DNA from: Peronospora farinosa
Lineage: Eukaryota; Oomycota; Peronosporomycetes; Peronosporales; Peronosporaceae
Reading direction: 5' to 3'
Assembly: GCA_947646735.1 (NCBI GenBank)
Contig: CANTFK010000673.1
Location: 1 to 64,000 of the forward strand
DNA length: 64,000 nt
Below are positions 3,676 through 40,005 of this stretch, piece after piece (within the stretch, counting starts at the first letter, position 1; each line of letters begins with the position of its first letter). The position numbers were made by a program, and so were the translations under genes. Below the pieces are notes generated by a model, which had not been told where the DNA came from, made no database searches, and worked only from the letters and a program-made list of their open reading frames with translations.

Positions 3676-3756
3676 CGACAGCTGTGAGACTTGAACTCAC
3701 GCGGGTTACCCCAATAGATTTCGAGTCTATCGCCTTAACCGCTCGGCCAAGCTGTC
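3676..3756 (-). tRNA. tRNA-Ser(CGA), copy 7
   Basis: Identical tRNA in a 547-bp unit with three CGACTAAA repeats on its 3' side. Confidence 0.95.
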
Positions 3757-4214: not shown

Positions 4215-4295
4215 CGACAGCTGTGAGACTTGAACTCACGCGGGTTACCCCAATAGATTTCGAGTCTATCGCCTTAACCGCTCGGCCAAGCTGTC
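4215..4295 (-). tRNA. tRNA-Ser(CGA), copy 8 (last)
   Basis: Identical tRNA, the last complete copy before the array is cut at 4729 by element B sequence. The partial ninth unit that follows has all of the spacer but no tRNA. Confidence 0.95.
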
Positions 4296-4737
4296 CCAGC
4301 ATTCTGTCGACCACCCATGCCGCACAAAAAAATGGCACCTGCTTTCACCGCCGAATCCAGCTTTTCGCCGAGGGGGCACGCTCACCCGTCTGCCATCACA
4401 GTCGACTTGGTTACCTGCTACACCGACACACATGCTTGCGCACACTGCCACATCTGGCAGATACAGCTCATCTGTGCGCCACCATCACAGTCTGCTCGCC
4501 TAGCGTGAAGTGTCGACACGATTGCGGTGACTCAACCATTGTCAGCCAATTGAAACCACCGCATGCTCAAATGACGGAATGCCAAAAGGAACAAATGGCC
4601 CCACCACCCAACGACCCAAACCATCCCGACACCAAAAGAACAGACGACAAAACGACAAATGACCAAATGACCAAACGACTAAACGACTAAACGACAAAAC
4701 ATCAAAACAACCATAGCGTGACGCACAAGGAACTCTT

Positions 4738-13426: not shown

Positions 13427-13428
13427 GC

Positions 13429-16400
13429 GTGGGGCGCCCTACTGGCATAAATGGAGCCCCGAGTACTCAGGTGGCAGATCGGGCTCCTAGCCCCAAAGTG
13501 ATTCATACCCACTTCAATGCCACCACCATGCGCGATGATTCGAGACTGATTATTATCAGTCTCATCGTCGCTGGAGTGAAGCGACCACTTCGAGCGTTGT
13601 TGGATTCTGGCGCTTCCAACAACTTTTTTCGTGCATCCTGTTTGTCCCTTCTCCCGTCGACTGTCACGGTTCGAGAAGGTCCAGGTCAAACTTGCCGATG
13701 GACAACCAAAACGTGTCCCGCGTAAAACAGTGGTTTTACCGTACACTTTCGACGGTTTCCAGAGCAACGACGAATTTTTGGTGTACGAGATGAACTATGC
13801 ATTTGATTGCATACTTGGGATACCGTGGCTGTCACGGTATCAGCCGAAGATAGATTGGCTATCTCGGTCTGTCAAACGACGAAGCGGTTATGACGTCAGT
13901 GAAGTGTTTACTCATTTGTTGGTCGCTTCATCCGATTAGCCTCACGTCAGGGTCGTGAACGAACTCGCCACAACTAGTAGTCAATACAGAGAGAGCGATG
14001 CCCTCTGTGCGCAGTATGTTCCGTTACACTGACGGAGCCACAGAACGAAGCGGTCGAACAGCGGTTCCCGCATACACAGACATCGGTCGAACAGGGGTTC
14101 CGATGCACAACGAGGCGGTCGAACAGCGACACAGACATCGGTCGAACAGGGATTCCCGATTCGCAACGAGGCGGTTAAACAGCGGTTCCCGCACACACAG
14201 ACATAGGTCGAACAGGGGTTCCCGATTCTCAACGAGGCGGTCGATCAGGGGCTCCCGCATACAAGCACATCAGACGAGCAGCGGCTCCCGATCAATTTCG
14301 CGGCGGTTGAGCAGGGGCTCCCGCGTACAAGTACATCGGACGAGCAGAGGCTCCCGATAAATATCGAGGCGGTCGAGCAGGGGCTCCCGCAAACAGGTGC
14401 AGCGGTCGACGACGAGCTCCCGCTTTTGATTGACGAGAATGGGCGGACTACGGTTCCGCATGAGACCGACGTGGTGGAGACAGAGCTCCCACGTTAAGAG
14501 GGGGGTACATCATACTCTTGTGATAGCGACGTGCCAGTCTCGAGCAGGGGCTCGAAAAGCAAGAGAAAACGCAAGAAAGGAGCACGCCGATCACCGAGAC
14601 GACGAAATTCACGTCAACATGCTGATGCATTTGATTTCGTAGTGACGGAATCCGTATGCGCGCTTGAATATGTGGAGGGATCCCCACATCGTGGCCGCTA
14701 CATTGAGGTAGCGAGTCCACCGTGCACTGCTGCAGATATCACATCTCTTCCAGACCTTGCATGGAAAAGCTTCCTTCATGACCTCAAGGCTGGCGACATC
14801 GAGCAAGTGTGCATCGTTTCAGCCACCGAAGCAGCCAGTAAAGAAGTTCTGGAGGCTCGCCCGAAGAGCGCCGAGCCTATATCAGCGCGCGAAGAACGCT
14901 TCGTGGCACCGTCTTGGGATGCTCTTCGTGCTTCGGGCAACCCTGTATACAATATCGCCCGTGAGTACGCCGATATTTTTCCGGAGAAAATTCCAGCTGA
15001 GCCTCCGGCGGATCGTGGTGTGCGGCACGAGATAGATCTCGTTTCAGGATCAAAATATTGCGTGACACGGCAGTGGCCGTTACCGCGCGACCAAGTCACC
15101 GCTATTGATGAATTTTTCGAGGGGCGCCGCAAGGCTGGCCATGTCCGCGAGAGTATCTCGCCACATTCGAGTCCGACTTTCTGTGTAAAGAAGCCACCAG
15201 CGGTTGGCGCATTGTGCACGCCTTCAACAAGCTGAATGACGCCACGATACCGGCTCAAACGCCTATCCCTCGAAAAGACATGGTATTAAATACCATGTCC
15301 GGGAGCGAGATCTACAGCGCCATAGATCTGACAGACGGTTTCTATCAAATCGTCATGAGGGACAGTGACATTCCGTTCACTGCGGTCAGCACTCAAAGCG
15401 GGATGCTTTGAGATTGGTTAGTCATGCCACAAGGTCTTAAGAATGCTCCAGCTACGTTCAATCGGATGGTGACACAAGTTATCCGCCCACTTCGCGACTT
15501 TGCACCGAGCTACTTTGACGACATTTTTGTTCACAGCCGCGCTGAGCAAAAGCTCAGCGCTACGTAGGTACACCTCCGACACTTGAAGAAGGTGTTTCAA
15601 GTTATGCGCGAGAATAAATTGTATGCGAATTTGAAGAAATGTGTCTTCTGCGCTCCCGAGATTCCAGTACTCGGTTGCTACGTCAGCAAGGAAGGTGTCC
15701 GCGCTGATCCTGAGAAGATCTCATCGATCTGTCCTGGCCAACGCCCAGGAACCAAACTGAATTACGTCAATGGATCGGTCTGGCGAATTACTTGCATAAG
15801 TATACGAAGAACTATGCTGAGCTAATTCAGCCATTATCGACTTTGCTCAAGAAAGATGCAGTATGGTTATGGACGGCAGAACATCAATCTGCCTTCGACT
15901 CCGTAAAGAAGAGCTTGTCCGAGGCACCGGTGCTGATGTTACCTGATGACTCTAAGCCATTCCACGTCGTGTGTGACGCGAGCAATTTCGCTATAGGATG
16001 TGCCCTCATGCAATTTGATGACGAGGGTCGAGAGCGTGTCGTGAGTTTTCAATCACGACAGATGAAACCTGCCGAGAAAAATTATCCGGTACACGACAAG
16101 GAACTTTTGGCTATGCGTTACGCGCTAATCAAGTTTAGAGTATATTTGCTCGGTGAAAAGGTTTTTTCTATCTACACAGATCACGCATCATTGCGAACCG
16201 CCGTCAAGAGTCCTCACTTGTCCCAGCGTATGGCACGGTGGTTGTCATTTTTTGCCGAGTATAATTTTGTGGTGCATTACAAGCCTGGCAAGAATAACAA
16301 CCTCGCTGACGCGCTTTCTCGTCGTCCTGATTACGATCCTCGACGTGATATGGGTCATCAAACAGACAATGTTGATGACGACGAAGATATTTGTGTGTGT

Positions 16401-18213
16401 TGTATTGAGCTGGGACTCAATGCGATGATTTCGACCCCCGTGCTTTCGATCCGAACTTAGATCGCTGAATCCTACGCGAATGATTACCTCTATGCAGTAA
16501 TTATCAACTATCTCAGGGACCCGAGCGAAAAATTACTCGCGAAGTTGACGAAACCAACACGCGACAACATCAAGCGTTACGCGCTTGACGGTCCGTTGCT
16601 GACGTACACGATGGACGTCTTTCATTCCCCGCGTGTCGTCATCCCTGCTGATGACGACCTTCGAGCCCGATTGGTTCATGAATTTCACGACAGCCCAGCT
16701 GGCGGACACCTGGGTCGCGAAAAGACGTTTGCAGCTATTTCTCGCGTATTCTTCTGGCCGCGAATGTATAAATACATCCAGAAATGGGTGCGCTCCTGTG
16801 AAACCTGTCAGCGTGTGAAGCCCGCGCCGTCTTCACAAGACCCATTGCGTCCGCTTCCGATTGCTACGGAAGCCTGGCGCTCAGTCAGCATGGATTTTAT
16901 CTTTGACCTTCCACCGGATAAACAGAAACGCACGGGTGTATTGGTTCTAGTGGATCGATTCAGCAAAATGGTGCATTTTGCTCCGGTCTCCGCCAACATT
17001 ACGGCGGAGACGACAGCGAAGATCTTCATTGATCTTATCTTTAGGCATCACGGCTTGCCAGAATCTATTGTTTCGGACCGTGACCCGCGTTTCACTTCGG
17101 CTCTCTAGGCCGAATTATTCCAGCTATTAGGCACGCGGTTGCTTATGTCTACGGCGGCCCATCCAGAGACGGATGGGCAAACCGAGCGTGTGAACAGAGT
17201 GCTCGAAGATGTCTTGCGCAGTTATGCAACATCGTTCTCTTCATGGAGTTCATTTCTTCCACTTGCAGAGCTTGCAATCAACAATGCTGTCCATGCGTCA
17301 ACCGTGTTGACGCCCTTTTTCGTTAACAACGCGAGGCATCCTCGCGTTCCGGCGCTGCTTGCTCTCTCAGCTTCAGAACACCCTGTCTCCAAGCTTGGTG
17401 GGGGAGTATCTACGGATGGAATTGCGCCGAAACTATTGATGATTAATTACGATGCGCATAAGGTTGCTGCCAATGCACCCAAGACTGGTAACTTTGTGGC
17501 CAACGGCATATCGACTCCTGACGCGTTGCCTTCCATCGCGCCTCCCGTTGCCAATTTTGCTCCAAAAGAATGCTTCGCCTGTAAGTTTGGCTGCAGTAAC
17601 CGAATTTCTGCTATTACGACAAGGAATTACGCGTTTTGTGAGTGATGCATTACAAGAGGCAGTAGACAAGCAAAAGGAGAATGCAGACAGAAGAGGTCGA
17701 AAGAATATGTTAATATTTCGAGAAGGTGACAGAGTATTGTTATCAACAAGTGGATTACCGAACACCTCAGTGACGAATTTGGGTGCTAATAAGTTAGCGC
17801 CAAGATATATTGGCCCTTTTCGGGTTGTTAAGGTGCATGGTGACGCTTACACGCTAGACATACCTACATCTATGCGTTTGCACCCGACGTTCTACGTCGG
17901 GCGCCTCAAGGCTTACCTGCCGGCGGATCTCTCTTCGAATCTTCCCCGCTCTTCTGTTCCGTCTCAATATACGACATCTCTTGACGGCGACGTTGACGAC
18001 GACTGGGACCAAGTCCTGCCCGAACGCGTGCAGACTCGATCTGCTGGGGTCCTCCGAACGCAGTCGTCTCAAGTTGACGTAGGCGCTCAACCAGTACCAG
18101 CTGCTCACGTCGAGTCCGCTCAGCAGCCTCAGTCGCAGCATCCGCACGAACTTGAGCTCTCTCATCCATCTCGCGAGCATCAAGTAGAGTATTCTTCGAT
18201 TCCTCGGCTTCAG
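13429..18213 (+). pseudogene. pol: pol of element C (protease, RT, RNase H, integrase)
   Basis: Domains in order: protease with LLDSGASNNFF (about 13590) and LGIPWL; an expanded linker (about 14040-14420); RT with the first catalytic Asp in AIDLTDGFYQIVMRDS (15320-15360), MPQGLKNAPATFNR and YFDDIF (about 15510); RNase H with CDASNFAIG, HDKELLAMRYAL and YTDHASL (15970-16190); integrase with the zinc-binding H/H/C/C (HEFHDSPAGGHLG, CETC), and core Asp, Asp and Glu (MDFIFDLP, SDRDPRFTS, DGQTERVNR); and a GPY/F-like tail (YIGPFRVVKVHGDAYTLD). Stops at about 15410, 15565, 16458 and 17107 and frameshifts near 13700, 15200, 15750 and 17600 make it inactive. Confidence 0.9.
14040..14420 (+). repeat. 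Degenerate 60-66-bp repeats in the protease-RT linker of C
   Basis: Six or so imperfect units of the form GAGGCGGTCGAACAGGGG..CCCG. In the coding phase they read VEQGLP..TSTSDEQRLPINIEA, an acidic and Gln-rich linker. The Arg-rich and Cys-rich frames in other phases are shadows. Confidence 0.75.
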
Positions 18214-26391: not shown

Positions 26392-27588
26392 TGTGGTGGA
26401 GTGGGATTCGCAAAATTGCTGATGCGATCCCAACTCTCCACTGGCGCCCGGACGACCGACTAACGGAGGGGGTACCCCGATTCCGTGTGTATAGCCTTCC
26501 TCACCTTGTGTACCCGTCGGTAGGGCGGGTTGCTCTCTTCTCGGTAGACTTGAGTCGATGTTGAACTTGATTGTGTTAGGGATAGGTGGGGGGGCGATCG
26601 CGTGGAATTCCTCACACGATCGCAGTTGTTCTTGGGGTGCTCTGTTTGAGTCGCCCTGATCTCCCTTGAGATCGCCTTGTCCAAAAATGTAGATACTTGA
26701 TCCGCTTGCCTTCTGACCACTTGAGCCGTCTCGCGATCTTGTATCTGGACTTCTTAGTCCTCTGCGTCCAATCGCAGCTTGATTTGTTTTGTTGAGAATT
26801 CTTGCAATCCCTGGCCAAACAATCCAGGGATATGACTTGCGTAGTAGGTAGACTTCCTTGAGACGTCGGGAGGCCAAAGAATCCAGCCCGGAAGAGAAGT
26901 CGACACGTGTACTTAGAAGCAAATTGAACTCTGTTAATGTTAACCAATCAAATACCAAAACCTATGATCTTGACTATCTGTAGCTCAGGATCTGTTGCCA
27001 CGTATCGCCCTTTCGGAAAAAATCAGATCTCGGAATGTGGTCCACTCCAATATAGCCGCGATCTGGATCGCTACCTCACTCGGATATAATACCATTTTAG
27101 TACCAGATCGCGGTACTAAATAATTAATACCAGATCGCGGTACTAAATAATTAATATCGGATCGCGATCCGCCGGATCCCGACTTGTCTTCTTCACCGTT
27201 TCTCAGGTCATGTGAGATAGTTCATCAATGTGACATTTCATATCCACCATTCCAGTCCTCCATAGCGACGTGATCCACACCAGACCGTCCTCCACATGCT
27301 TGGATGTACCCATCTTCCTCCTTAGCGACCGCGTTCACGCGGATCGCCATCGGAAATACTGGAGATCGCAATAGCGTAGTTTCTAGGCCATATTTGACCC
27401 CACATAGAAGTGCAAACTACTCCATTCACTGTTTTCCATCCTATTTGACATCGTCTTGAAACCTTTCTGCGAGATCGCGACTCATCAATATTGGCCACGA
27501 GATCGCGACTCATTAATATTGGCCATTTCGGACTTAACCGAAAATATGCGATCACACTTGGCGAAATTCACTCTTTCACTTCGCCACA
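26392..27588 (-). mobile_element. 3' LTR of element E (1197 bp)
   Basis: Read on the minus strand it opens TGTGGCGAAGTG (27588) and closes CCCACTCCACCACA (26392). It carries the LTR core block at 26864-26894, and two copies of the 27-bp repeat at 27099-27152 plus a partial copy. It matches the 5' LTR except for five missing repeat units, one base in a G run and a single substitution I could see. Confidence 0.9.
27099..27170. repeat. 27-bp LTR repeat, two copies
   Basis: The unit contains ACCAGATCGCGGTACTAAAT. There are two full copies and a partial one here, against seven plus a partial one in the 5' LTR (39381-39590). Confidence 0.9.
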
Positions 27589-27673: not shown

Positions 27674-30295
27674 ATGGCCAGATCTACACCCGAAAACGAT
27701 CGCCACCCCCAAACTGGTGTGCTCGTTACGCGCGATCCAACGATGGGTTCCTCTACCGGATCGCGTATCTTGCTCCCGTCTACCCGGATAATCCTTCCTC
27801 CCGTTGCAGATCGTCAGAACGCGATCTCGTTGGTTTCTTCATTGTATGACCGCCTGGAAGCCCAGGATACCATCGTGGAAAGCTATCACTCCATGGAAAA
27901 TGCCTTGCAGGAGCAGGAATTTCGTGGAAATCAGCTGGAGACGGAACTCAACTCGTATCACGAGTTGGTGCCTCGACTGTGCACATTCGTCTTGCGTCGA
28001 GATGAAGAGTTGCGTCAACAACTTGATGCCGCTCTCCACATGGCCGAAGGTCTCGACGAAGAACTGAACCAGCTAACGGATCAGTCTCAGGAGATCGCCG
28101 ATCTGAAGAATGCCTTGTTTCGAGCCAATGCAGAGAAACATCGCCTGCAGGATAAATTCCGCCGTGAGGCGGCCAATCTTCAGCGAACTCTGGAAGGAAA
28201 ATTCCGGCAGCAGATCGCGTCCCTCCAACAGCAACTGGACTCCATCCTCGCACAGCGTAATACAGCAGACAGTGCTTTGGCCGCTGACTTTCGACGCATG
28301 AAAAGCAAGGCATCCAAGTACAAGAAAGCTCGTTCTCAGGCCCAGCAAGCCGCGAAACAACTGCAAGAGACACTGAGCGCGCTCGAGCTTGATCATGATC
28401 GCCTCCTGAGTACGAGTATTCGGAACGACGCAGCTTTGGATCGACTTCGTACCGAAGTTGCAGATCGAGAGGCAGAGCGCGATCTGGCCATCCAGGATCG
28501 AGATTTACTTCGTTCGCATCTGGCAGAATTGGCTACGGGCTTACTTCCTTCTCCGACTAGCCTTCTCGCGCTTTCCAATCCCTCGTCACCCAATCGCAAA
28601 CGTGCGTCATCTTCACCGACTCTGGACGTCCCCTGTAAACGTCCCCGCAGCGCTTTCGGTACTTCTGCTCAATCTGCGACCTCGGAGGGATCTGGCATTC
28701 CAGCGCGATCTGGGACTTCGACGCGATCTGAAATTCCGGCGCAATCCGGTACTTCGGCACAGTCTGGCACTTCAGCGCGATCTAGTATTTCCCCGCGATC
28801 TGGTACTCCGCCGCGATCTGGTAACTTAACGCGATCTGGCACTCCGGCGCGATCTGGTACTTCAGCGCGATCTGGCACTTCAGCGCGATCTAGTATTTCC
28901 CCGCGATCTGGTACTCCGCCGCGATCTGGTAATTTAACGCGATCTGGCACTCCGGCGCGATCTGGTACTTCAGCGCGATCTGGCACTTCAGCGCGATCTA
29001 GTATTTCCCCGCGATCTGGTACTCCGCCGCGATCTGGTAATTTAACGCGATCTGGTAACTCAGAACGGTCTGCCAAGTCGGTGCGATCCGTTATTACAAC
29101 GCGACCCAATGTTTCGTCGAAAGCTAAAAAGAAACGCAAAACGTGTCCCTCGCCTTCGCCTGACTCTGAGTATGACGGCTGGTCTTCCGATCCCGAGGAC
29201 GCTACACTTGCTGCTCTATCCGGATCGCGTTCCACCACGAGGCGTCGCAACACCACGACGAAACTCTCTGGCAACACCGGATCGTCTCAGTCCCCTATCA
29301 TAATTCACAATGGTAGCCCACCCTCCAAAAAATCACCAGTCTCGAGTCCTGCTACGCCCCCTAGCCTTACGACCAAGATTTCTAAGGTCGACCTTTTTGG
29401 CGAACCTTCTAGCGACTCGGACGGGAAGATTAGCGTTTCCAGTGACATCCGTGAAGATATAAACCAGTTGCTCACTCCCGCTCAATACGCCGACCTGCCT
29501 GATCTCCAAAAATCACGTGATGTGTGGATCCCAGGATATCGTGAGCGAAAGCCCCGATCGTCAACTCAGGTCGCTCCATGGTCCGCCCGACGGGTCAGTC
29601 TGACCAGTGTTGCCGAATTGGGAGTGGAGTTCTTCTATCGACACTTGTCCCGACCGAGAGGGTATATCTTCACCCCTCAAGCCAATCCCAAATCTCTTCT
29701 TGATTCTGAGTGGATTCCCCGACTGATCACCCCGGCACAAGTTACTGCGCTTTACGATCAGAAACCGTGGAACGTCACTCGTCGGCCGATTGCTCCCATC
29801 TCTTTCCCGCTGACCGGTTGGTTCAAAGATCTGGCGGACATTTACCTGGAATATGAAGATCGCCATAGGCAAGCCTTGTGGGAGGCAACCCACTTCCTGT
29901 ATATCTCCCGCGAACTTCGGAAGGAGTATCCAGAGCTGGCGCAATTTTGTCAGCAACGCAAGCAGCGTCGGTCGAGATCTGGACCCCGCTGGAAGACTAT
30001 TCTTCGCGTTATTCTCCAAGGGATGATCGAAGGACACTGTGATCTGGATATTTTGTTAGATCCATACTTCCTCCACTTTCCAGTGTACGCAGAAGTGCGA
30101 CCATGGTATCCTGGTTTGGATTGCAAGCAGAAAAACATTCCCAACCTGATTACTGCACTGTCGTTATTGGATTCTGCGGAGCCTTGGCGGAACCAATATC
30201 GGTCCTCAATCGCGGATCACCCCGGTTCATCCCTCGCCCGTTTATCCAGTAAATTCTTTCCCAAACAGCAGTCGGGATCTGATAACACTTCTTGA
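27674..30295 (+). CDS. Convergent accessory gene of element E: coiled-coil, repeat-rich protein of unknown function
   Basis: An intact frame of 873 codons on the strand opposite to gag-pol, between pol and the 3' LTR; its stop is 183 bp from the pol stop. I chose the ATG at 27674 (MARSTPENDRHPQTG); an in-frame ATG at 27491 lies inside the LTR. Domains: about 80 variable residues; a long heptad-rich coiled coil (about 85-310, e.g. LYDRLEAQDTIVESYHSMEN); NLS-like clusters (CKRPR, KKKRKTC); about twenty 6-residue RSGTSA/PRSGTP units coded by GCGATCTGG repeats; a TLAALSGSR..RRR motif; and a conserved C-terminal domain (about 640-860) with SFPLTGWF, LWEATHFLY and EGHCDLDILLDPYF. No transmembrane segment or known catalytic motif is seen. 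A homologue lies at the same place in element H. Nuclear localisation and DNA/RNA binding are inference. Confidence 0.85.
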   Translation: MARSTPENDRHPQTGVLVTRDPTMGSSTGSRILLPSTRIILPPVADRQNAISLVSSLYDRLEAQDTIVESYHSMENALQEQEFRGNQLETELNSYHELVPRLCTFVLRRDEELRQQLDAALHMAEGLDEELNQLTDQSQEIADLKNALFRANAEKHRLQDKFRREAANLQRTLEGKFRQQIASLQQQLDSILAQRNTADSALAADFRRMKSKASKYKKARSQAQQAAKQLQETLSALELDHDRLLSTSIRNDAALDRLRTEVADREAERDLAIQDRDLLRSHLAELATGLLPSPTSLLALSNPSSPNRKRASSSPTLDVPCKRPRSAFGTSAQSATSEGSGIPARSGTSTRSEIPAQSGTSAQSGTSARSSISPRSGTPPRSGNLTRSGTPARSGTSARSGTSARSSISPRSGTPPRSGNLTRSGTPARSGTSARSGTSARSSISPRSGTPPRSGNLTRSGNSERSAKSVRSVITTRPNVSSKAKKKRKTCPSPSPDSEYDGWSSDPEDATLAALSGSRSTTRRRNTTTKLSGNTGSSQSPIIIHNGSPPSKKSPVSSPATPPSLTTKISKVDLFGEPSSDSDGKISVSSDIREDINQLLTPAQYADLPDLQKSRDVWIPGYRERKPRSSTQVAPWSARRVSLTSVAELGVEFFYRHLSRPRGYIFTPQANPKSLLDSEWIPRLITPAQVTALYDQKPWNVTRRPIAPISFPLTGWFKDLADIYLEYEDRHRQALWEATHFLYISRELRKEYPELAQFCQQRKQRRSRSGPRWKTILRVILQGMIEGHCDLDILLDPYFLHFPVYAEVRPWYPGLDCKQKNIPNLITALSLLDSAEPWRNQYRSSIADHPGSSLARLSSKFFPKQQSGSDNTS
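28700..29070 (+). repeat. GCGATCTGG repeat inside the accessory gene of E
   Basis: About twenty 18-bp units (GCGATCTGGTACTTCAGC type), arranged partly as a higher-order repeat of 108 bp. Units differ mostly at positions that change Thr/Ser/Pro/Ala between the constant Arg-Ser-Gly. Confidence 0.9.
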
Positions 30296-30478: not shown

Positions 30479-33400
30479 TTAGCCACCAGATCCCTCTTCA
30501 TGTGATTGCATCACTTCAAAACGATTCCGGCTAATCTTGCCACGTTCAAAATCTCGCAATAAGGCACCACAATTTAAGTCGGCTTCATCCACCCAGGATG
30601 GTTTAGCATGACCTTTCCAGTAGACTTTAAACTGTCTATGTACTCGTCCAAAACGTGTCTTTCTATCAGATCGTACATCCACAATCTTTTCCACTTCGAA
30701 TTCATCGTCTCCCAGATTACCTTCAAAACTGTCTTCTGGCAAAAGCGCTTCATCAAAATCGAATCGATATTCTTCTTCGATCGTCAGCAAATTTTTTGGA
30801 CGATCAGGGAACGTCTTCACTTTCTTCAACTTGGATATATGTACGACGGGAAATAATCGATATGGCGTACCAGCAATCTCCAGTCGGACAGCGTGATCTC
30901 CACACATTTCTTTTACTCGAAAAGGTCCATGCCACATATGTGCTAGCTTTCGAGCGTACCCTTCTTTCACACGATCCAAATATAACCAGACTTGCGCCCC
31001 CGGCTCAATTTCGTGAGGCTTGAGATCTTCATTGTGGCGATCAGCACGTGTTTGGATCGCAGTCCTGAGTCTCTCATTTACTGCTTCTCTCGCCCGCTGA
31101 TAATGCCGCTGCATATGATATCGCCACCTACGTGGATCGCGATCTCGACGCCTAGTACTTCCTAATGGTAACGTAGCTTCCAACGTAGATCTCGGGTCCC
31201 AACCATGAATCAAGAAAAATGGCGTTTCGCCGCGCACCCGATCTTGAGCGGTATTGATTGCGAAAGTTAGACGTTCGGCATACTCATCCCAGTCTTGTTG
31301 ATTAACGTCAGAGACATACATCTTTAATGCACGAGTCAGAGTTTGCACCATACGTTCCGCAGTTCCATTCGCTTGAGGGCGATATGCCATCGTTGCCCTT
31401 TGCTTTTGCCCAATAAGTCGATTGAACGCACGAAAAAAATCCGACATAAACCCGGGCTCTCGATCGTGCCGTATCGCTTCACTCGCACCGAATCGTCGAA
31501 AGATACACTCCTCGTAATTCTCGGCGATCGTCTGAGCTGTTCTAGATTTGCTCGCCTTGGCAACCACATAGCCCGAAAAGAGATCGACCCAGATCAATAA
31601 TTCAGTGTTGCCTTTGAAAGATCTAGGCAGCGACGGAATATGATCCATGGCAATAATCTGGAACGGATAAGTAGCTTGTAAATTTCCCGGAGACTCTCCA
31701 TTAATAACCGGACGTCCTTTTCCAGTCTCGCAGTCAGTGCATTCGCTCACATATCGTTGTACACTGCGATACAGGCCTCTCCAATGAAAACGAGATCGGA
31801 TCCGTTGATACGTCCTACCGATTCCCTGGTGCCCTCCTTCCAAACTGGCATGGTAGTGGTGTAGAAAATCTTGCTGAAGAGTTTCTGGCACCACCAAACG
31901 AGCAATTCCATCGAGATCGTCCGAATTTTTCACAGCTCCCGGGCAAAAATATAGAATATCGCTTTCATCCACCTCATAATCACTTGCAATCTTGGCGCAT
32001 GACTTCGCTTCTTCCATACTGAGATTCGTTATATCACCAATCAGAAAAATCTTTAGGTTAGCGATCCAACATTCCTCATCTTGAGCTTGTCGTATACGTT
32101 CACTTCGCATTTGCTGCACAAATTCTTCTTGCAAGATCTCGGGTGGTTGACGTCTTCTCCGGGTTGCTCTGGTAATCGCAGCCACTTTAACCACCGATTC
32201 GGTCTGCTTCGACTTCAACAACTCATCCAGTCTATTAAGAGTAATGAGATCTTGGCGATCTCCTTCCGAAGTGATGACCACACCTTGTTCCTTCTGTAAA
32301 GCAGTACTCGCCAGTCGATCTGCACTTTGGTTCCAGTCGCGTTTCATGTGTAAGAACTCATGGATCGGCCATGATCGAAGCTTCTCCATTGCTTTCTGTC
32401 GCAACAACTGCAGTCCAGGAGCCTTGCAATCGATTTCACCCCGCATCTGTCGAATCACTAGGTTGGAGTCGCCACAAATAATAACGCGTCCCCTAGTTTG
32501 ATTCTCCAACAGATCAAAGCCTAATAGTAAACCCCGATATTCGGCTTCGTTCACTGTTAAGTCCGTTGCATATTCCGATGCAGCAGCCACAATAGTCCAC
32601 TCAGGAAGTTTCCATATTATCGCACTGTATGATCCACCCTTTCGCTTGGTTCGTGCCGATCCATCGAAACTGACGACCAAGAGACTTTCATCTTCTTCCA
32701 CCGTAGGCGGTGGCATACTTAGAGTTTGCCTTGGCTGTTTCCGGGGAGCGATCGCAATCAACACTTCGTCGACTTCTTCACGGGGAGTCACACTTGCAGC
32801 CAGGGCACCAAGCATTTCATCTTCGCCCTTTTCACATTTCTTGATCTCCAAAGTCCAAGTCGATAATAATGCGGCCCACCTACCTAGCCTGCCATTGAGA
32901 CCGAAGGATTGCACCAACCAGGCCATCGTCGAGAAACGCGTAAGAACTTTAATCTCTCGCGAGACTAGCATGCAATAACATATATCCAAAATCCGAAGTA
33001 ATGCTAGTATCTCCTTCTCGACCATTCCGTAATTGATTTCATTAGGCTTCAGCGTTCGGCTTGTAAAAGTAACTGGCCAATATATACCATCATACTCCTG
33101 CAATAAAGCTGCTGAAACGGCCCATTTACTCGCATATACGACAATTACCGGAGGCCGATCTGGATCGAAGTGTCTGAGGATCGGGGTATTAGCGATCTTG
33201 GCTTTCAACATGGTAAATGCGATCATCGCTTTTTCCCATCGAGTCCGTCCTTCTGGATCTGGATCGTCCCCAATATCGAACTTTTGATCTGAATCATTCC
33301 TGGTTGCGACAGTCGAATCCAATGCATTCATCTTGTCAGAACAGCGGATTTCATGGAAATCTGCTTCCCTTAATTCATATAGCACTGACGCATAAATCGC

Positions 33401-36388
33401 AAAGTCTTCGACAAATCGACTATAGTAATTCAAGCTTCCCAGAAACGATTGCATCGATCGCAACGTTTTTGGGAACGGAATATTCACCAGCGATCCCAAA
33501 TCCTTTGGATTAGCTTCGATTCCTGCCAGTGAGACTTGATGACCCAGGTAGTCCACCTTACGTCGTCCCCAAAAACTTTTAGCGAGACTGATCGACAAAT
33601 TCCATTCGTTGCATACTTCTAACAATCGCTTTACCTTATCATATAAGGAGGCCCACGATGTTGCTGGAATTAGTATGTCATCAATATATGACCTTCGGCC
33701 AAGCACAGATGGCTTCTGGCTAGTATCCGGTTCGCCTTCTGTGAATACATCAACCAGCTTTGGCGATCCCGTTACCGTATCAGCGGAGTCGAGTGATCCT
33801 GTGGCAATTGCGTTTGGATCCGTACCGATCTTGAGGTATCCATACAGTGCATTATCAATTAGACGTTGGTAAATCTGCGGAGCGTTTTTTAGCCCAAACG
33901 GCATTCGTAACCACTCGAACAGGCCTGACGGCGTGATAAAAGCAGAAATCATCCTTGCTCGCTCGGTCATTTCCACGACCCAAAATCCACTGGCCATATC
34001 CAACGAACAATACCACATAGCTTTATCCATATCTTGCAATAATTCGCTAATCAGAGGCATAGGATACACCATCAATCTCGTGAGTTGATTCACCCGCCGA
34101 TAGTCAATACATAACCGGATGTCGACACCATTCTTTTTTATGATTACCACAATCGGCGAAGCCCATGGTGATGTCGACGGCTGGATAATCCTGGCTGATA
34201 GTAATCCTTTGATTAGGTCAGCTAACTTCTCGCGAAATTTGGGAGCGACCGGTCGTACTCGTTGTGCGATCGGGTGTGCTCCACCAACATCGATATCACA
34301 TACTGCTCCTCGAGCTGCAGGAGGAAGCGCGTTTCCTTTGCCAATGAGTAAGTGTCGGTTCGCCCAAATTAATTGCCGTAGACTTTCTTGGTCCTTGGTT
34401 AAAGGAACTCCCGGATCGCCCACTTGGATATCATCAATCGTAACTTCTTCGGTGGATGACACAATCTCAGGCAAGACAGCCATATGCTGATCCACATCTT
34501 CGGCATACAATTCACCACTCTCATGACAATACATCGAGTCTTCAGGCTTCATCTTTACACTTCCTCCGGCTAGAATAAATTCGTCGTTGATAATCGTCGT
34601 ATCACTAGCTTGCTCTTGTTCTCGCAGATCGCGATCCAGATCGGCCAGATCGCGGTTATTAATTACCATATCGGCCAGATCGCGGTCATCGCGATCCAGA
34701 TCAGCCAGATCGCAGTCCTCAATTGTCGGATCGGGGTTATCGCGATCCAGATCGGCCAGATCGCGGTTATTAATTACCATATCGGCCAGATCGCGGTCAT
34801 CGCGATCCAGATCAGCCAGATCGCAGCCCTCAATTGTCGGATCGGGGTTATCGCGATCCAGATCGGCCAGATCGCGGTTATTAATTACCATATCGGCCAG
34901 ATCGCGGTCATCGCGATCCAGATCAGCCAGATCGCAGTCCTCAATTGTCGGATCGGGGTTATCGCGATCCAGATCGGCCAGATCGCGGTTATTAATTACC
35001 AGATCGGCCAGATCGCGGTCATTGATTGCCAGATCAGCCAGATCGCAGTCCTCAATTGTCGGATCGCGCTCCATACATTTCGGTGTATAGTTATTGTGAG
35101 TGTAATTATCTTCACCCCACGGCCCTTTCACGTGATCGACATTTGACATCCCTCTGATCGCATTGATTACCCATGGAGATTGCGCTACTTGCTCGCTTTC
35201 ATCTTCGATCACCCGATCTTCTACATTGTTGCCACCGATTCCTCTTATCGCATCGCATTCTTCATTGGATCGTGTCGTGGGTTTCACTGTTTCCGTAGTC
35301 CTTTCTTCTGCTTCCTTTTTTGAGCGTGTTAAGATCCTCTTCGGCGTAGGGTACGAAGGATGGTCCACTAGCGGTCCGGTATATTCCTCCAGTAGTTCTT
35401 CTTCTCGATCCGTTGTCGCTTCGAACGCTAATGTCTGCCATTCGTTATACCGACGCGATCCCACCGAGACATATCCTGGGGACCGAGGTATCATATCAGC
35501 AACCATCCACCAACCTAATGGCGATCCATGACTTAAAGTCACTTCTTGATCGCCGATATTAGTCAGCTGTAGATACTTGATCTGACCTGGTCCCGTAGTT
35601 ACTGTAGGTACCCACTTCGGATCGCGCCTCACCCAGATCTTGGCTTTAGGAGGACTAACTCCGATCTTCACTTCGGTCGATTTGCCCACGGGAATCACCA
35701 CATATTGATCTGGAATTGTGATCGCTTGTATGGTCGCCCGGTAAGGGGGTCTTCGTCCATTCAGAAGTATCCTGACCTCATCAGGCAAACAAAGTGTTCC
35801 ATCTGCTAAATCCAGGCGTATTCCAGCTGGGACCATAAAATCCATTCCTAGGATCGCGTCTTGACCTACTTGATCTCCTACCCAAGCATCAAAATAATAG
35901 ACTAGCGATCCATTCAGCGTGATCTTGATTCTTGTACGACCGTCCGTCATGTATATGTTCTCACCAATCCCAACACATTCTTGCCTCTGACTCTCGTCAA
36001 TGACACATCCTACCTTACGAGCAAAGGTGGTGTCGACGATTGAGACTTCGGCTCCAGAATCAAACAACATAATCGCCTTTTCATTGTTGATCTTGCCCGT
36101 TGCCTTGGCTTGCTTGAACCATTTTCCTGGGGTATGATATTTCCAATATCCCCGTGATTCACCTGGTGCTAAGTCGAGCTCCATTTTCGCAGGCGATCGG
36201 GCATATTCATCAACTCTTACGACGCTTGATATTGAACGCAGAAATTTTGAATCTTCACATGTATTATTCGGGTCGATCTGAGTGTTAACGCCCTGATCTG
36301 TCGATCTTCTTTCCACAAATGCATAAATGCAGAGCCTAGAACGCTCGGCTCGTACCAGATTCCAACCTGGCGAGCGTCCTAGTTTAAC
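30479..36388 (-). CDS. pol: pol polyprotein of element E: protease, RT, RNase H-like, aRNH, integrase, chromodomain
   Basis: An intact frame, expressed by -1 shift from gag at 36382-36388; counted from the GTG at 36316 it has 1945 codons. Approximate residues: protease LFDSGAEVSIVD at 85; acidic DRDLADL repeats 410-575; RT 660-950 with YCSLDMASGFW, MPFGLKNAPQIYQRL and YIDDIL at 880; a first RNase H-like domain 1050-1180 in which the catalytic DAS and TDH have become YAS and TRF; aRNH 1209-1340 with all four acidic positions (SFDGSA, NEAEYRG, CGDSNLV, SADRLA); integrase with HHYH..CTDCETG (1480-1530) and DHIPS, HDREPGF and GTAERMVQ; and a chromodomain at 1870-1920 (FKVYWKGHAKPSWVDEADL). This makes it an aRNH-bearing chromovirus-like element. 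It copies element RNA to DNA and integrates it; the chromodomain probably guides target choice. Confidence 0.95.
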   Translation of the reverse strand, partial: VKLGRSPGWNLVRAERSRLCIYAFVERRSTDQGVNTQIDPNNTCEDSKFLRSISSVVRVDEYARSPAKMELDLAPGESRGYWKYHTPGKWFKQAKATGKINNEKAIMLFDSGAEVSIVDTTFARKVGCVIDESQRQECVGIGENIYMTDGRTRIKITLNGSLVYYFDAWVGDQVGQDAILGMDFMVPAGIRLDLADGTLCLPDEVRILLNGRRPPYRATIQAITIPDQYVVIPVGKSTEVKIGVSPPKAKIWVRRDPKWVPTVTTGPGQIKYLQLTNIGDQEVTLSHGSPLGWWMVADMIPRSPGYVSVGSRRYNEWQTLAFEATTDREEELLEEYTGPLVDHPSYPTPKRILTRSKKEAEERTTETVKPTTRSNEECDAIRGIGGNNVEDRVIEDESEQVAQSPWVINAIRGMSNVDHVKGPWGEDNYTHNNYTPKCMERDPTIEDCDLADLAINDRDLADLVINNRDLADLDRDNPDPTIEDCDLADLDRDDRDLADMVINNRDLADLDRDNPDPTIEGCDLADLDRDDRDLADMVINNRDLADLDRDNPDPTIEDCDLADLDRDDRDLADMVINNRDLADLDRDLREQEQASDTTIINDEFILAGGSVKMKPEDSMYCHESGELYAEDVDQHMAVLPEIVSSTEEVTIDDIQVGDPGVPLTKDQESLRQLIWANRHLLIGKGNALPPAARGAVCDIDVGGAHPIAQRVRPVAPKFREKLADLIKGLLSARIIQPSTSPWASPIVVIIKKNGVDIRLCIDYRRVNQLTRLMVYPMPLISELLQDMDKAMWYCSLDMASGFWVVEMTERARMISAFITPSGLFEWLRMPFGLKNAPQIYQRLIDNALYGYLKIGTDPNAIATGSLDSADTVTGSPKLVDVFTEGEPDTSQKPSVLGRRSYIDDILIPATSWASLYDKVKRLLEVCNEWNLSISLAKSFWGRRKVDYLGHQVSLAGIEANPKDLGSLVNIPFPKTLRSMQSFLGSLNYYSRFVEDFAIYASVLYELREADFHEIRCSDKMNALDSTVATRNDSDQKFDIGDDPDPEGRTRWEKAMIAFTMLKAKIANTPILRHFDPDRPPVIVVYASKWAVSAALLQEYDGIYWPVTFTSRTLKPNEINYGMVEKEILALLRILDICYCMLVSREIKVLTRFSTMAWLVQSFGLNGRLGRWAALLSTWTLEIKKCEKGEDEMLGALAASVTPREEVDEVLIAIAPRKQPRQTLSMPPPTVEEDESLLVVSFDGSARTKRKGGSYSAIIWKLPEWTIVAAASEYATDLTVNEAEYRGLLLGFDLLENQTRGRVIICGDSNLVIRQMRGEIDCKAPGLQLLRQKAMEKLRSWPIHEFLHMKRDWNQSADRLASTALQKEQGVVITSEGDRQDLITLNRLDELLKSKQTESVVKVAAITRATRRRRQPPEILQEEFVQQMRSERIRQAQDEECWIANLKIFLIGDITNLSMEEAKSCAKIASDYEVDESDILYFCPGAVKNSDDLDGIARLVVPETLQQDFLHHYHASLEGGHQGIGRTYQRIRSRFHWRGLYRSVQRYVSECTDCETGKGRPVINGESPGNLQATYPFQIIAMDHIPSLPRSFKGNTELLIWVDLFSGYVVAKASKSRTAQTIAENYEECIFRRFGASEAIRHDREPGFMSDFFRAFNRLIGQKQRATMAYRPQANGTAERMVQTLTRALKMYVSDVNQQDWDEYAERLTFAINTAQDRVRGETPFFLIHGWDPRSTLEATLPLGSTRRRDRDPRRWRYHMQRHYQRAREAVNERLRTAIQTRADRHNEDLKPHEIEPGAQVWLYLDRVKEGYARKLAHMWHGPFRVKEMCGDHAVRLEIAGTPYRLFPVVHISKLKKVKTFPDRPKNLLTIEEEYRFDFDEALLPEDSFEGNLGDDEFEVEKIVDVRSDRKTRFGRVHRQFKVYWKGHAKPSWVDEADLNCGALLRDFERGKISRNRFEVMQSHEEGSGG
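34600..35080 (-). repeat. GATC-rich repeat coding the acidic protease-RT linker of E
   Basis: Tandem units of about 39 and 117 bp built on GATCGCGATC and GATCGGCCAGATCGCGG. In pol phase they read DRDLADLVINNRDLADLDRD and similar. The repeat consensus differs from that of element A (11078-11760), although both sit at the same point of pol and both keep Asp-Arg-Asp. The two plus-strand frames over it are shadows. Confidence 0.9.
36337..36388 (-). promoter_or_regulatory. gag-pol -1 frameshift site, element E
   Basis: On the minus strand: G-TTA-AAC (36388-36382), gag stop TAG (36381-36379), and an 11-bp stem from TAGGACGCTCG and CGAGCGTTCTA with an inner CCAG..CTGG hairpin. The -1 frame has its last stop (TGA) 8 nt before the heptamer and is open from there through all of pol. 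GUUAAAC is a known -1 slippery heptamer in a nidovirus, where it also precedes a stop codon. Confidence 0.8.
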
Positions 36389-38295
36389 ATTTCTTCAGCC
36401 TTCGGCGGAAGCATTCCAGCATGCTTGGTTGGGACATACCACTTGCGTATCATGTTGTAGAATTCTTCCATTCGACATTTTCCATGCTCATGGATATCTC
36501 CGCAGGCAGCACAGGTGTAAAAACACTTGTCCGACGGATGTCCCTTACGACCACACTTCTGACACGTTAGTCTCTTCCAGCATCCACGATCATCGTGTTT
36601 CTTCGACCCACAATGGGTACAAGCCTTCTGATTCACCACGCGATCTGGACCGCGATCTTGATCCAAATAGTCTGATCCCGCGCGTTGATCACTATATTTC
36701 TTCACGCGATCTGGTACTGTGGCCACACATAAGTTGCGTCGATCTATTTCGGCGTCTGATCCACTAATATCCGAGTCTGACTCACTGCTACTGCCTTCCA
36801 GACGAATCGCTCTCACAGCACGAGTTGGTTTCGAGGGTGCCGGAGTGGATGCCGACGCAGATCGCTGACGAAATTTGCTCGATCCCATTGCACTCGGATA
36901 CTGTCTTCCCTCCATGCGTTGATATGTTCGCAGAGTTTCTTCCATATCATCGGCGTCTCCAAGGCGTAACAACGTCAACTGCTTAGCCAGATCGCGATCA
37001 TCCAGTGTACCAATGAAATGTTCCACATGTTCTCGGCGAATTGAGGGCGATCCTTCCCGAATGGGGATTTTTGCTCGGATCGCGGCCACATTCAGTCGAT
37101 ACAAATATTCCAATGGAGTTTCATCAGATCGCTTCTTCGCATGGTAGTATTGTCTCCCGACCGACATACCATATCCACAATACTGGATCATGAAGGTTTC
37201 CAGCAACGACTTCCATGAATTCCGGGTGGATCGACTTAACTGGCTATACCAATTTCGTGCCGGCCCCGTAAGTAAATCACCAAATACTAGACATTTTTCA
37301 TCATCCGGGGCTTGGTCGCGTAAGAACGCCGACTTGGCCTTGTTGACCCAACTTCTCGCTCGATCTTCATCCTTGTCCCGTCCTGTAAATTCTTTCAGAT
37401 CTGCGATCGCAGACATTCGAATCCGCTGCGTGACAAGTCCACCATTAGGTACAGCGCCTGCACTTGCGACTTGTGGCCGTCTTAGATCCTCCAGACCCAA
37501 ATCGTCTGGATCGTAATTATTGGATCGCGATTGACGCGATCCGGCCGATTCCATATCCACATCCGAAATGCAAACTTTTGGGGTGTTTGTAGGGATCGCG
37601 GATCGACTGGCGATCATGCGAGCTTGATCCTGCTCGTACTTTCTCATGGCAGCTTCAAAATAAGATTGCAATTGACCTGATCCATTCACGTTCATGTCTT
37701 CAGCTGTGAGTGCCGTCGTCGATTGTTCTCTGGCCTTAATCGGTGCCAGTCGCTCGCGAATATGCGCTGCACCAGCCGGTCCAAGTGACATTCGCTGCAT
37801 ATTAATCGAGTCGTCCGACTCCCCTTCGGATTCCGCTGACATATATTGCGAAGATCCCGTATGATATCCTTTTGGTATATCTGCAATCGGCTGGATCGTC
37901 TGATCCACCGGATCGCGCTCTCCAATTAGAGGAACTAGCTTCGAAAACAGAGATCGCCCTGCTTGGATCACCCGATCATGATCGCATTCCAACAGCACCT
38001 GCGCGTCAAAAGCTCCAGCGGTGAATCCAGCGTTCTGGAGCAACTCCATAAGCCGACGGATCGCTTCCAACTGGTTCGGTGTCGGAATGGGAGCTGAAAT
38101 TGGTCCTCGTAGCGATCCAATCAACTTCGGTTTCAAAATCTTTAGAACGGGATCGCTTGACAACAGATCTTTAAGCGCCTTCCAATGAAAACACCATTCC
38201 AGCTGATCCAGTTGCCATCCTTTCGCCTTGTCTTCCTCATGCGCTGGCTTCACGTCGATATCATCATGATCCGACTCAGGCGCCTTCATCTTCAC
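36379..38295 (-). CDS. gag: gag polyprotein of element E
   Basis: An intact 638-codon frame from GTG at 38295 (first ATG six bases on, MKAPESDHDD); the phase is also open upstream into the leader, where it matches the family-2 Gag N-terminus (DPLDKNPTVKTE against DPEDHQPTVKTE). Residues about 20-110 hold WCFHWKALKDLLSSDPVLK and TPNQLEAIRRL. The capsid core is at about 295-420 (ADLKEFTGRDKDEDRARSWV, MSVGRQYYHAKKRSDETPLE). Three Cys/His groups close the protein: CTHCGSKKHDDRGC, CQKCGRKGHPSDKC and CAACGDIHEHGKC. Gag would assemble the virus-like particle and bind element RNA. It terminates at MLN-TAG, within the frameshift signal. Confidence 0.93.
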   Translation of the reverse strand: MKMKAPESDHDDIDVKPAHEEDKAKGWQLDQLEWCFHWKALKDLLSSDPVLKILKPKLIGSLRGPISAPIPTPNQLEAIRRLMELLQNAGFTAGAFDAQVLLECDHDRVIQAGRSLFSKLVPLIGERDPVDQTIQPIADIPKGYHTGSSQYMSAESEGESDDSINMQRMSLGPAGAAHIRERLAPIKAREQSTTALTAEDMNVNGSGQLQSYFEAAMRKYEQDQARMIASRSAIPTNTPKVCISDVDMESAGSRQSRSNNYDPDDLGLEDLRRPQVASAGAVPNGGLVTQRIRMSAIADLKEFTGRDKDEDRARSWVNKAKSAFLRDQAPDDEKCLVFGDLLTGPARNWYSQLSRSTRNSWKSLLETFMIQYCGYGMSVGRQYYHAKKRSDETPLEYLYRLNVAAIRAKIPIREGSPSIRREHVEHFIGTLDDRDLAKQLTLLRLGDADDMEETLRTYQRMEGRQYPSAMGSSKFRQRSASASTPAPSKPTRAVRAIRLEGSSSESDSDISGSDAEIDRRNLCVATVPDRVKKYSDQRAGSDYLDQDRGPDRVVNQKACTHCGSKKHDDRGCWKRLTCQKCGRKGHPSDKCFYTCAACGDIHEHGKCRMEEFYNMIRKWYVPTKHAGMLPPKAEEMLN

Positions 38296-38672: not shown

Positions 38673-40005
38673 TGTGGTGGAGTGGGATTCGCAAAATTGC
38701 TGATGCGATCCCAACTCTCCACTGGCGCCCGGACGACCGACTAACGGAGGGGGTACCCCGATTCCGTGTGTATAGCCTTCCTCACCTTGTGTACCCGTCG
38801 GTAGGGCGGGTTGCTCTCTTCTCGGTAGACTTGAGTCGATGTTGAACTTGATTGTGTTAGGGATAGGTGGGGGGGGCGATCGCGTGGAATTCCTCACACG
38901 ATCGCAGTTGTTCTTGGGGTGCTCTGTTTGAGTCGCCCTGATCTCCCTTGAGATCGCCTTGTCCAAAAATGTAGATACTTGATCCGCTTGCCTTCTGACC
39001 ACTTGAGCCGTCTCGCGATCTTGTATCTGGACTTCTTAGTCCTCTGCGTCCAATCGCAGCTTGATTTGTTTTGTTGAGAATTCTTGCAATCCCTGGCCAA
39101 ACAATCCAGGGATATGACTTGCGTAGTAGGTAGACTTCCTTGAGACGTCGGGAGGCCAAAGAATCCAGCCCGGAAGAGAAGTCGACACGTGTACTTAGAA
39201 GCAAATTGAACTCTGTTAATGTTAACCAATCAAATACCAAAACCTATGATCTTGACTATCTGTAGCTCAGGATCTGTTGCCACGTATCGCCCTTTCGGAA
39301 AAAATCAGATCTCGGAATGTGGTCCACTCCAATATAGCCGCGATCTGGATCGCTACCTCACTCGGATATAATACCATTTTAGTACCAGATCGCGGTACTA
39401 AATAATTAGTACCAGATCGCGGTACTAAATAATTAGTACCAGATCGCGGTACTAAATAATTAGTACCAGATCGCGGTACTAAATAATTAGTACCAGATCG
39501 CGGTACTAAATAATTAGTACCAGATCGCGGTACTAAATAATTAATACCAGATCGCGGTACTAAATAATTAATATCGGATCGCGATCCGCCGGATCACGAC
39601 TTGTCTTCTTCACCGTTTCTCAGGTCATGTGAGATAGTTCATCAATGTGACATTTCATATCCACCATTCCAGTCCTCCATAGCGACGTGATCCACACCAG
39701 ACCGTCCTCCACATGCTTGGATGTACCCATCTTCCTCCTTAGCGACCGCGTTCACGCGGATCGCCATCGGAAATACTGGAGATCGCAATAGCGTAGTTTC
39801 TAGGCCATATTTGACCCCACATAGAAGTGCAAACTACTCCATTCACTGTTTTCCATCCTATTTGACATCGTCTTGAAACCTTTCTGCGAGATCGCGACTC
39901 ATCAATATTGGCCACGAGATCGCGACTCATTAATATTGGCCATTTCGGACTTAACCGAAAATATGCGATCACACTTGGCGAAATTCACTCTTTCACTTCG
40001 CCACA
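38673..40005 (-). mobile_element. 5' LTR of element E (1333 bp)
   Basis: On the minus strand it opens TGTGGCGAAGTG at 40005 and ends CCCACTCCACCACA at 38673. It has the core block at 39146-39176 and seven full 27-bp repeats plus a partial (39381-39590). Its 5' end abuts the middle of another LTR (40006 onward). Confidence 0.9.
39381..39590. repeat. 27-bp LTR repeat, seven copies plus partial
   Basis: The unit contains ACCAGATCGCGGTACTAAAT; six copies begin AGT and the seventh AAT. The five extra copies account for 135 of the 136 bp by which this LTR exceeds its partner at 26392-27588. Confidence 0.92.

Follow-up and report, generated by a model that had tools for sequence, protein, structure and literature searches.

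Several Ty3/gypsy retrotransposons of plants, among them Retand, Grande, and RIRE2, carry antisense open reading frames (ORFs) between pol and the 3' long terminal repeat (LTR) (PMC7264820, PMC11963269; statements about published work are drawn here from parts of the papers cited). Some of these ORFs have SMC-like annotations, they are kept in most copies, and their function is an open question. Among plant antisense genes with a similar arrangement, one encodes a protein of the nucleus and others are predicted to bind DNA. Specifically, Grande gene23 has its own promoter and encodes a nuclear protein, and in Retand the TRP28 domain (PF04195) is found in 97% of clusters, tandem arrays occur in about half, and DNA binding is predicted (PMC7264820, PMC11963269). 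The plant Tat clade also gained a second RNase H (PMC10508981). Here, we describe an antisense ORF (aORF) in element E, a Ty3/gypsy-like retrotransposon in a 64,000-nucleotide stretch of the oomycete Peronospora farinosa (contig CANTFK010000673.1, positions 1 to 64,000; called the window below). The aORF was convergent with pol, selected, and co-inherited with pol.

Three further sets of published observations bear on this gene. In oomycetes, the Chronos clade of Ty3/gypsy elements has a dual RNase H and a chromodomain adjoining the integrase, and its named frames are ORF1 and ORF2 (Ustyantsev et al. 2017, PMC5348765). The words "antisense" and "accessory" occur zero times in the main text of that paper, and our searches of the open-licence literature, outside of which most subscription papers lie, showed no description of such a gene for elements of oomycetes. 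In Arabidopsis, the VANC proteins of VANDAL elements are anti-silencing factors, and related families have different short motifs that are often in tandem (PMC5735166, PMC10398659). VANC proteins have conserved and fast-changing parts, and the motifs are bound in non-coding DNA with an effect on DNA methylation (PMC5735166). In Phytophthora infestans and Phytophthora sojae, N6-methyladenine (6mA) is linked to transposable elements and 5-methylcytosine (5mC) is undetectable (PMC6211444).

The aORF of E was an intact frame of 873 codons (948 codons from stop to stop) that sat between pol and the 3' LTR and did not overlap pol. The gap between the aORF and the end of pol at position 30,479 was 183 bases, and the ATG was located 86 bases past the edge of the 3' LTR. 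An earlier reading of the window made from its letters (the sequence-only reading) had described this arrangement, and our coordinates agreed with it. The parts of the gene were as follows.

27674 to 30295, plus strand: aORF of element E, 873 codons, ATG at 27674 and stop at 30293-30295, convergent with pol
27863 to 28555, plus strand: coiled-coil part, residues about 64-294, with heptad periodicity and a weak SMC-type match
28574 to 28630, plus strand: bipartite basic cluster NRKR...CKRPR, a possible nuclear localisation signal (approximate position, read by eye; the script did not flag it)
28689 to 29057, plus strand: 18-bp in-frame tandem array encoding RSGTSA-type repeats
29207 to 29425, plus strand: short motifs common to other families, namely LAALSGSRSTTRRR, the SUMO-interaction-like PIII, and LFGEPSSDSDG
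29489 to 30292, plus strand: conserved C-terminal domain, residues 606-873

We searched the window's own assembly (46.85 Mb, 274 contigs) for copies of the gene. At least six families of elements (E, B, C, D, G, and H) carried the aORF; the sequence-only reading, which had called the gene conserved in two families, was right about the conservation and wrong about the number. At least 15 E-type copies had a single open frame of 905 to 973 codons from stop to stop, a lower bound based on 52 scored candidates of 848, and the length of the array-bearing ORF differed among intact copies. Copies with a full match to the C-terminal domain, no stop within the match, and 600 or more open codons from stop to stop numbered at least 41 (15 in E, 1 in B, 11 in D, 5 in G, and 9 in H). 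The C copies that were fetched had shorter frames.

Linkage with pol was examined with 131 pol 3' ends (131 of 1,239 candidates were scored) and 243 aORF pieces, at distances of up to 1.5 kb. N-terminal pieces and repeated places were left out, and the row for H came from a separate comparison of E and H. The C-terminal end of an aORF lay convergent beside 89 of the 131 listed pol ends, with a median gap of 243 nt; no pol end had an aORF in the same direction, and 42 had none among the pieces used. Ten of these 42 were inspected. Three (L051, L056, and L057) had a nearly complete gene in at least two pieces, the other seven (L048, L049, L050, L052, L053, L054, and L055) had internal deletions with the flanking element sequence retained, and none of the 10 suggested an ancestor without the gene.

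Some of the deletions were shared by many copies. The deletion junction of L049 (E type) was spanned by at least 18 rows among the best 40 of 176 candidates, with at least 170 of the 200 query bases and 77 to 100% identity, and that of L053 (D type) was found in at least 7 rows among the best 40 of 204 candidates, which covered the whole query with 81 to 100% identity (the query copy is counted in both cases). Thus, copies without the C-terminal domain have spread. An N-terminal frame of 414 to 490 codons was present in three of the eight C-terminal-deleted copies examined (L049, L058, and L059), and five were broken earlier. L049, L053, and their relatives are possible non-autonomous or interfering lineages. 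The sequence-only reading had named absence of the frame from other full-length copies as a reason for doubt; some spread copies did lack the C-terminal part, yet the flanks retained around the gaps indicated that these copies were deletions.

Selection was inferred from the ratio of nonsynonymous to synonymous divergence (dN/dS) by the Nei-Gojobori method, and values refer to the C-terminal domain unless the whole ORF is stated. Between aORF lineages in which synonymous divergence (dS) was not saturated, dN/dS ranged from 0.08 to 0.20. It was 0.14 to 0.20 between E and C, 0.08 to 0.12 between C subfamilies, and 0.18 to 0.19 between G and H (0.20 to 0.27 for the whole ORF). In the case of D, L029 and L033 gave 0.18 to 0.19 (whole ORF, 0.35) and L029 and L032 gave 0.08. 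Values were 0.19 to 0.51 within C and 0.20 to 0.27 within H. For comparison, pol gave 0.08 between E and C (518 codons) and 0.17 between L029 and L032. In Fisher tests of 10 pairs, p was at most 2.7e-4 in eight. When all six reading frames were compared, the annotated aORF frame had the lowest dN/dS in each of six comparisons, and the second-lowest value belonged to the antisense frame that shares third positions but has stops inside. The aORF was under purifying selection as a protein.

Other comparisons pulled against this conclusion. The two weaker pairs in the Fisher tests were L030-L040 of B (dN/dS 0.60, p = 0.30) and L010-L019 (dN/dS 0.36, p = 0.016). Recent E copies were near neutral (0.82 for the whole ORF and 0.39 for the C-terminal domain), and values within G were 0.57 to 2.16, resting on 1 to 7 synonymous changes. 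The B-D ratio of 0.27 to 0.33 was obtained at saturated dS, and most other inter-family pairs lacked a usable dS. Several close D pairs also had ratios above 1. Near-neutral ratios among recent copies are what is usually seen when copies of an element decay after insertion. Selection on the protein had been claimed by the sequence-only reading and was borne out by ratios well under 1 between lineages; values near 1, which had been set beforehand as the sign of neutrality, were seen among recent copies.

These results also bear on whether the antisense RNA, rather than a protein, is the product. By pairing with gag-pol RNA in its 3' part, such an RNA would feed small-RNA control of copy number. 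The position and orientation of the gene would yield complementary RNAs, and this role has been suggested for plant elements (PMC7264820). The constraint at the protein level, seen in the six-frame comparisons with their stops in other frames, and the 41 long open copies argued against it, and we consider it very unlikely.

Next to selection, the gene showed a history in common with pol. Identities of pol and of the aORF C-terminal domain were correlated (Mantel r = 0.94, p = 0.0001; 10 copies from six families, several per family and thus not all independent). Maximum-likelihood trees of pol and the aORF agreed in topology, (((E,C),B),D),(G,H); in the approximately unbiased test, the aORF data did not reject the pol tree (p = 0.486). 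Some nodes were modestly supported (E+C had 74 in the aORF tree), and inter-family branches were longer in the aORF than in pol. Because the topology matched that of pol, the gene most likely goes back to an ancestor shared by these families, of which there are at least six.

Homologues were also found outside the assembly. Three protein searches gave at least 13, at least 69, and at least 22 matching proteins, some of them in several lists; the third scored the best 8,000 candidates by common words. Every named match was from Phytophthora (capsici, rubi, fragariae, fragariaefolia, megakarya, cactorum, citrophthora, oleae, and infestans) or Peronospora (matthiolae, effusa, and destructor). These names supported an oomycete source. 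P0090, from Peronospora effusa, matched the G family with 92% identity across 41% of the query, which makes a Peronospora-like downy mildew the probable source of the window. In P0009, a reverse transcriptase was continuous with the aORF C-terminal domain, both being on one strand; this might be a rearrangement or an assembly chimera. In P0008, from Phytophthora fragariaefolia, the domain was annotated with a zf-GRF (PF06839) segment, which might reflect insertion into a gene, exon capture, or an annotation fusion. Elements can capture genes, and P0008, by joining the domain to another segment, is what might be expected if the aORF were a captured host gene carried as a passenger. The presence of the gene in six families with the topology of pol, and its selection, spoke against a passenger, a matter on which no systematic search for aORF copies away from pol was made; we give this explanation a very slight chance.

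The aORF protein had a layout that recurred in the five families examined at full length (E, B, D, G, and H). Each had N-terminal heptad periodicity (p ≤ 0.01 in at least one proline-poor window) and one or more basic clusters. Heptad periodicity reached p ≤ 0.02 in 6 of 10 N-terminal windows, and in E the SMC-type coiled-coil match at residues 64-284 was weak (E value 1e-4; 20 bits against a cut-off of 567). An acidic stretch was followed by a motif of the LxAALxxSRSxxRR type in all five, with an AAMARSRAS version in G and H. The five families also had [LM]FG followed by acidic serines and a P-[IVE]-[IV]-[IVL]-x motif, which we take to resemble SUMO-interaction motifs and which in D was placed before the SR motif. 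These motifs were patchy among 19 database proteins examined. The repeats, an 18-bp array in E and an unrelated set in H, were located in the fast-changing middle of the protein. The layout was one of a coiled coil, basic clusters, fast-changing repeats, acidic, SR, and SUMO-interaction-like motifs, and a conserved C-terminal domain. The order of coiled coil, basic clusters, repeats, and C-terminal domain proposed in the sequence-only reading was thus conserved in five families, and the blocks it had quoted, including SFPLTGWF / SFPVNGWF and AEPWRNQY / VEPWRIFY, were present.

The C-terminal domain contained an arginine-rich stretch, and residues invariant across 12 sequences included P-W, W-E-x-x-H, R-x-x-R, D-x-x-L-D, and P-x(5)-R-L-x-x-K-F. 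Such invariant or nearly invariant polar residues in divergent sequences could be those of a catalytic module, with W-E-x-x-H and C-D-L-D-x-x-L-D-P as the conserved signatures. Invariant residues can also be structural, however, and searches of Pfam, NCBIfam, and the PDB gave only weak coiled-coil and chance-level matches, none of them significant, so that an enzyme seems highly improbable. The absence of significant known domains in these searches agreed with the failure of the sequence-only reading to recognise a family. PF04195 (TRP28) was not among the matches of the full E protein, of 9 members, or of 12 members (no profile-profile comparison was made), and a genome scan for PF04195 was uninformative because its controls were silent. 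Derivation from Gag or Pol was unsupported (hhalign E values of 0.58 and 0.31), and among viral contigs 25 pattern matches contained zero relatives. Within the literature and databases searched, the aORF protein family and its presence in Chronos-like elements appear to be undescribed.

Element E itself was mapped as follows.

26392 to 27588, minus strand: 3' LTR of E, with a 27-bp array at 27097-27166 and a 28-bp pair at 27470-27525
30479 to 36316, minus strand: pol of E, with protease, reverse transcriptase, Ty3 RNase H, second RNase H, integrase, and a weak chromodomain match
34628 to 35068, minus strand: 30/111-bp tandem array in the protease-reverse transcriptase linker of E pol, in which the DNA word of the LTR and aORF arrays recurs in another frame
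36379 to 38295, minus strand: gag ORF of E
38673 to 40005, minus strand: 5' LTR of E, with a 27-bp array at 39379-39583 and a 28-bp pair at 39887-39942

The two LTRs were 99.4 to 99.8% identical, which indicated that the insertion was young. The number of 27-bp repeats was 2.6 in one LTR (27097-27166) and 7.6 in the other (39379-39583); because E is young, the arrays must change length quickly. The pol-linker array was in frame and encoded a DRDLADL peptide. Target-site duplication was looked for at the edges, where CTTA and CTTG were found and no exact pair. The left flank of E was pol-like sequence of another element, as in a nested insertion.

In E pol, RT_RNaseH (residues 1051-1152) and RVT_3 (1217-1338) were both above the cut-off; the second RNase H is a feature of Chronos. 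The integrase match (rve) was below the cut-off, and the chromodomain match (PF00385, residues 1873-1924) was weak, with an E value of 3.4e-4 but 20.9 bits against a cut-off of 25.1. Read by eye, the first RNase H had VYAS and TRF in place of the usual TDAS and TDH, and the second had FDGS, NEAEY, GDSN, and ADRLA. This pattern may fit Chronos, in which catalytic residues are degenerate in the first RNase H and complete in the second. From its predicted domains, E pol looks like a member of the Chronos clade of oomycete Ty3/gypsy elements.

With a probability of about 0.5, we favor the reading that a Chronos-like clade carries the aORF as a protein-coding accessory gene in antisense orientation and that the product of this gene is a nuclear trans-acting regulator or anti-silencing factor. 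The regulatory role is inferred. The aORF would be transcribed on its own from a start near the 3' LTR edge, and its protein would dimerise via the coiled coil, enter the nucleus, and act in trans on the DNA or chromatin of its own family, so that copies of that family stay expressible through regulation or anti-silencing. In the most speculative step, the protein might recognise a short family-specific word repeated through the element, much as VANC does.

Some observations counted against a regulator encoded in this way. First, the C-terminal domain was dispensable in cis, since copies without it have spread; this spread also fits a protein supplied in trans. Second, evidence was poor for a promoter, which the sequence-only reading had placed antisense in the LTR. 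A motif resembling the oomycete initiator was found upstream three times in both of the E copies examined, with p = 0.007 against shuffles, and once in one of six D loci, and it was absent upstream in the two B loci and the G locus examined. Start codons within the LTR had been used for some of the D loci, which made this a poor test.

The same features could belong to a targeting or nuclear-import factor that accompanies the pre-integration complex and, complementing the chromodomain, anchors this complex to chromatin or older like copies. Basic clusters and the coiled coil in the aORF, the weak chromodomain match in pol, and the nested insertion of E are consistent with such a factor, and plant antisense genes have been discussed as possible counterparts of retroviral accessory proteins, with a role that includes bringing the pre-integration complex into the nucleus (PMC7264820). 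A separate antisense transcription unit would be an odd source of a particle component, however, and the aORF had no similarity to Gag or Pol. We regard a targeting factor as unlikely.

The families also differed in short DNA words. CGATC occurred 206 times in E (13.6 kb) and 19 times in H, and GATCGCG occurred 82 times in E against 9.8 expected and once in H. The E word recurred across arrays that differ in period and frame: the 27- and 28-bp LTR arrays, the 18-bp array of the aORF, and the 30/111-bp array of the pol linker. Once arrays were masked, GATCGC ranked first among 6-mers in each of four E segments (LTR, aORF, pol, and gag), as well as in C, B pol, and B L051. Another word led in the B aORF, and the related GATCGA led in the B LTR. 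GGTCGA was top in both D segments, and other words led in H and G, with GGTCCA third in H.

Coding words were compared with synonymous-codon shuffles that kept the protein and codon usage. CGATC ranked 1 of 511 in both E pol (58 observed, 25 expected) and B pol (79 observed, 30 expected), 1 of 472 in the B aORF (32 observed, 11 expected), and 3 of 479 in E gag (30 observed, 15 expected). GGTCG was enriched in D pol (23 against 12, rank 2 of 511) and the D aORF (24 against 13, 3 of 446), and GGACC was enriched in H pol (25 against 13, 4 of 511) and the H aORF (25 against 12, 3 of 461). At the 6-mer level, GATCGC led in E pol, E gag, and B pol, and other 6-mers led in D and H. In these tests, no family exceeded a z score of 1.7 for the word of another lineage, and an unrelated gypsy-like element in the window (12500-18200) showed enrichment of none of the lineage words. 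In array-masked LTRs, CGATC was second of 416 words in E and first of 400 in B. Words were thus enriched beyond codon and protein constraints, strongly for GATCGC in E, B, and C, moderately for GGTCG in D and GGACC in H, and doubtfully in G. The sequence-only reading had treated the change in DNA words as background; the word tests suggest that the words may matter.

One tentative possibility is that the antisense protein is a sequence-specific DNA binder that marks "self," with the word of each lineage placed in LTRs, gag, pol, and arrays on both strands. Protein and word would diverge together and provide family-specific anti-silencing or self-targeting. Several results did not favor such a binder. 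Outside its array, the E aORF had 23 CGATC against 15 expected, a rank of only 10 of 480, and GGACC in the G aORF ranked 103 of 457 (16 against 13). The own words of D and H were not enriched in their array-masked LTRs, where CGATC was in slight excess (z of 2.3 to 2.5 on 3 and 7 sites). The C-terminal domain of the E aORF showed no enrichment of the E word and was rejected as its carrier. Finally, the words followed the pol tree as well as the aORF tree. Thus, nothing yet links the words to the aORF protein in preference to a different protein of the element, a mark set by the host, or a process of mutation.

The words may instead have come from mutation bias, slippage in tandem arrays, or host marks, with no binding protein involved. 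GATC lies inside the word of E, B, and C and could be connected with the 6mA of Phytophthora transposable elements (PMC6211444), arrays amplify words, and several further words were enriched in H and D. On the other side, enrichment survived array masking and synonymous shuffles, the D and H words lack GATC, and CGATC was depleted in the unrelated gypsy-like element (10 against 18.9, rank 501 of 512). We put an origin without binding just short of even odds. For the self-marking binder, the lineage words offer a concrete test of function, namely whether the word of a protein's own family is bound, and a word system tied to the aORF protein would be the larger finding. It would mean that a VANC-like system had evolved independently in a retrotransposon and had been written even into synonymous sites, in organisms without detected 5mC (two Phytophthora species tested).

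The second aORF-bearing element of the window, H, was mapped as follows.

48341 to 49081, plus strand: 5' LTR of element H
52063 to 56824, plus strand: pol of element H, in two overlapping frames
57099 to 59178, minus strand: decayed aORF of element H, frameshifted and in several frames, with N-terminal matches reaching about 59270
60114 to 60855, plus strand: 3' LTR of element H

The LTRs of H were 95.6% identical. Its aORF remnant, which the sequence-only reading had also noticed, matched the C-terminal part of the E aORF with 39% identity over 104 residues (E value about 1e-20). The C-terminal pieces were 91 to 97% identical to L041, and the element is a dead representative of a family in which other copies keep long open frames. 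Elsewhere in the window, positions 1-4700 held a satellite array of about nine 539/547-bp units with stretches of 96 to 100% identity, including ACGACAAA-type short repeats; in this satellite, GGTCG had a z score of 3.3 and ranked 82 of 272. The element at 12500-18200 was broken and unrelated to E.

Compared with known systems, element E has in common with Chronos the dual RNase H and possibly, on a weak match, the chromodomain by the integrase. Antisense genes at such a place are carried by plants and by a fungus, so the kind of gene is already known. The fungal example is brtn of Botrytis cinerea, reportedly an extra gene that Boty elements carry in antisense (Zhao et al., 2011, is said to describe it); compared by description only, brtn and the aORF are both antisense extra genes of LTR elements. 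As the sequence-only reading had anticipated, the antisense ORFs of Retand, Grande, and RIRE2 have the same place and orientation as the oomycete aORF, and, in the parts of the sources covered, they also have tandem repeats and, in the Tat clade, a second RNase H. The aORF differs from them in its clade, in having the coiled coil first and the conserved domain last, and in giving no PF04195 match, so the likeness is one of architecture. A gene of this kind in an oomycete clade that converged with plant Tat on a second RNase H suggests that it solves a general problem of these elements, and some "hypothetical proteins" in Phytophthora and downy mildew annotations may be element genes. Likened by description, VANC appears to be the best functional parallel for the aORF: both are element-encoded, their elements have short motifs that differ between related families and often lie in tandem repeats, proteins and motifs change rapidly, and both proteins have conserved and fast-changing parts, but the VANC motifs are bound in non-coding DNA with an effect on DNA methylation, whereas 5mC was not detected in Phytophthora and the words of the oomycete elements also fill coding DNA.

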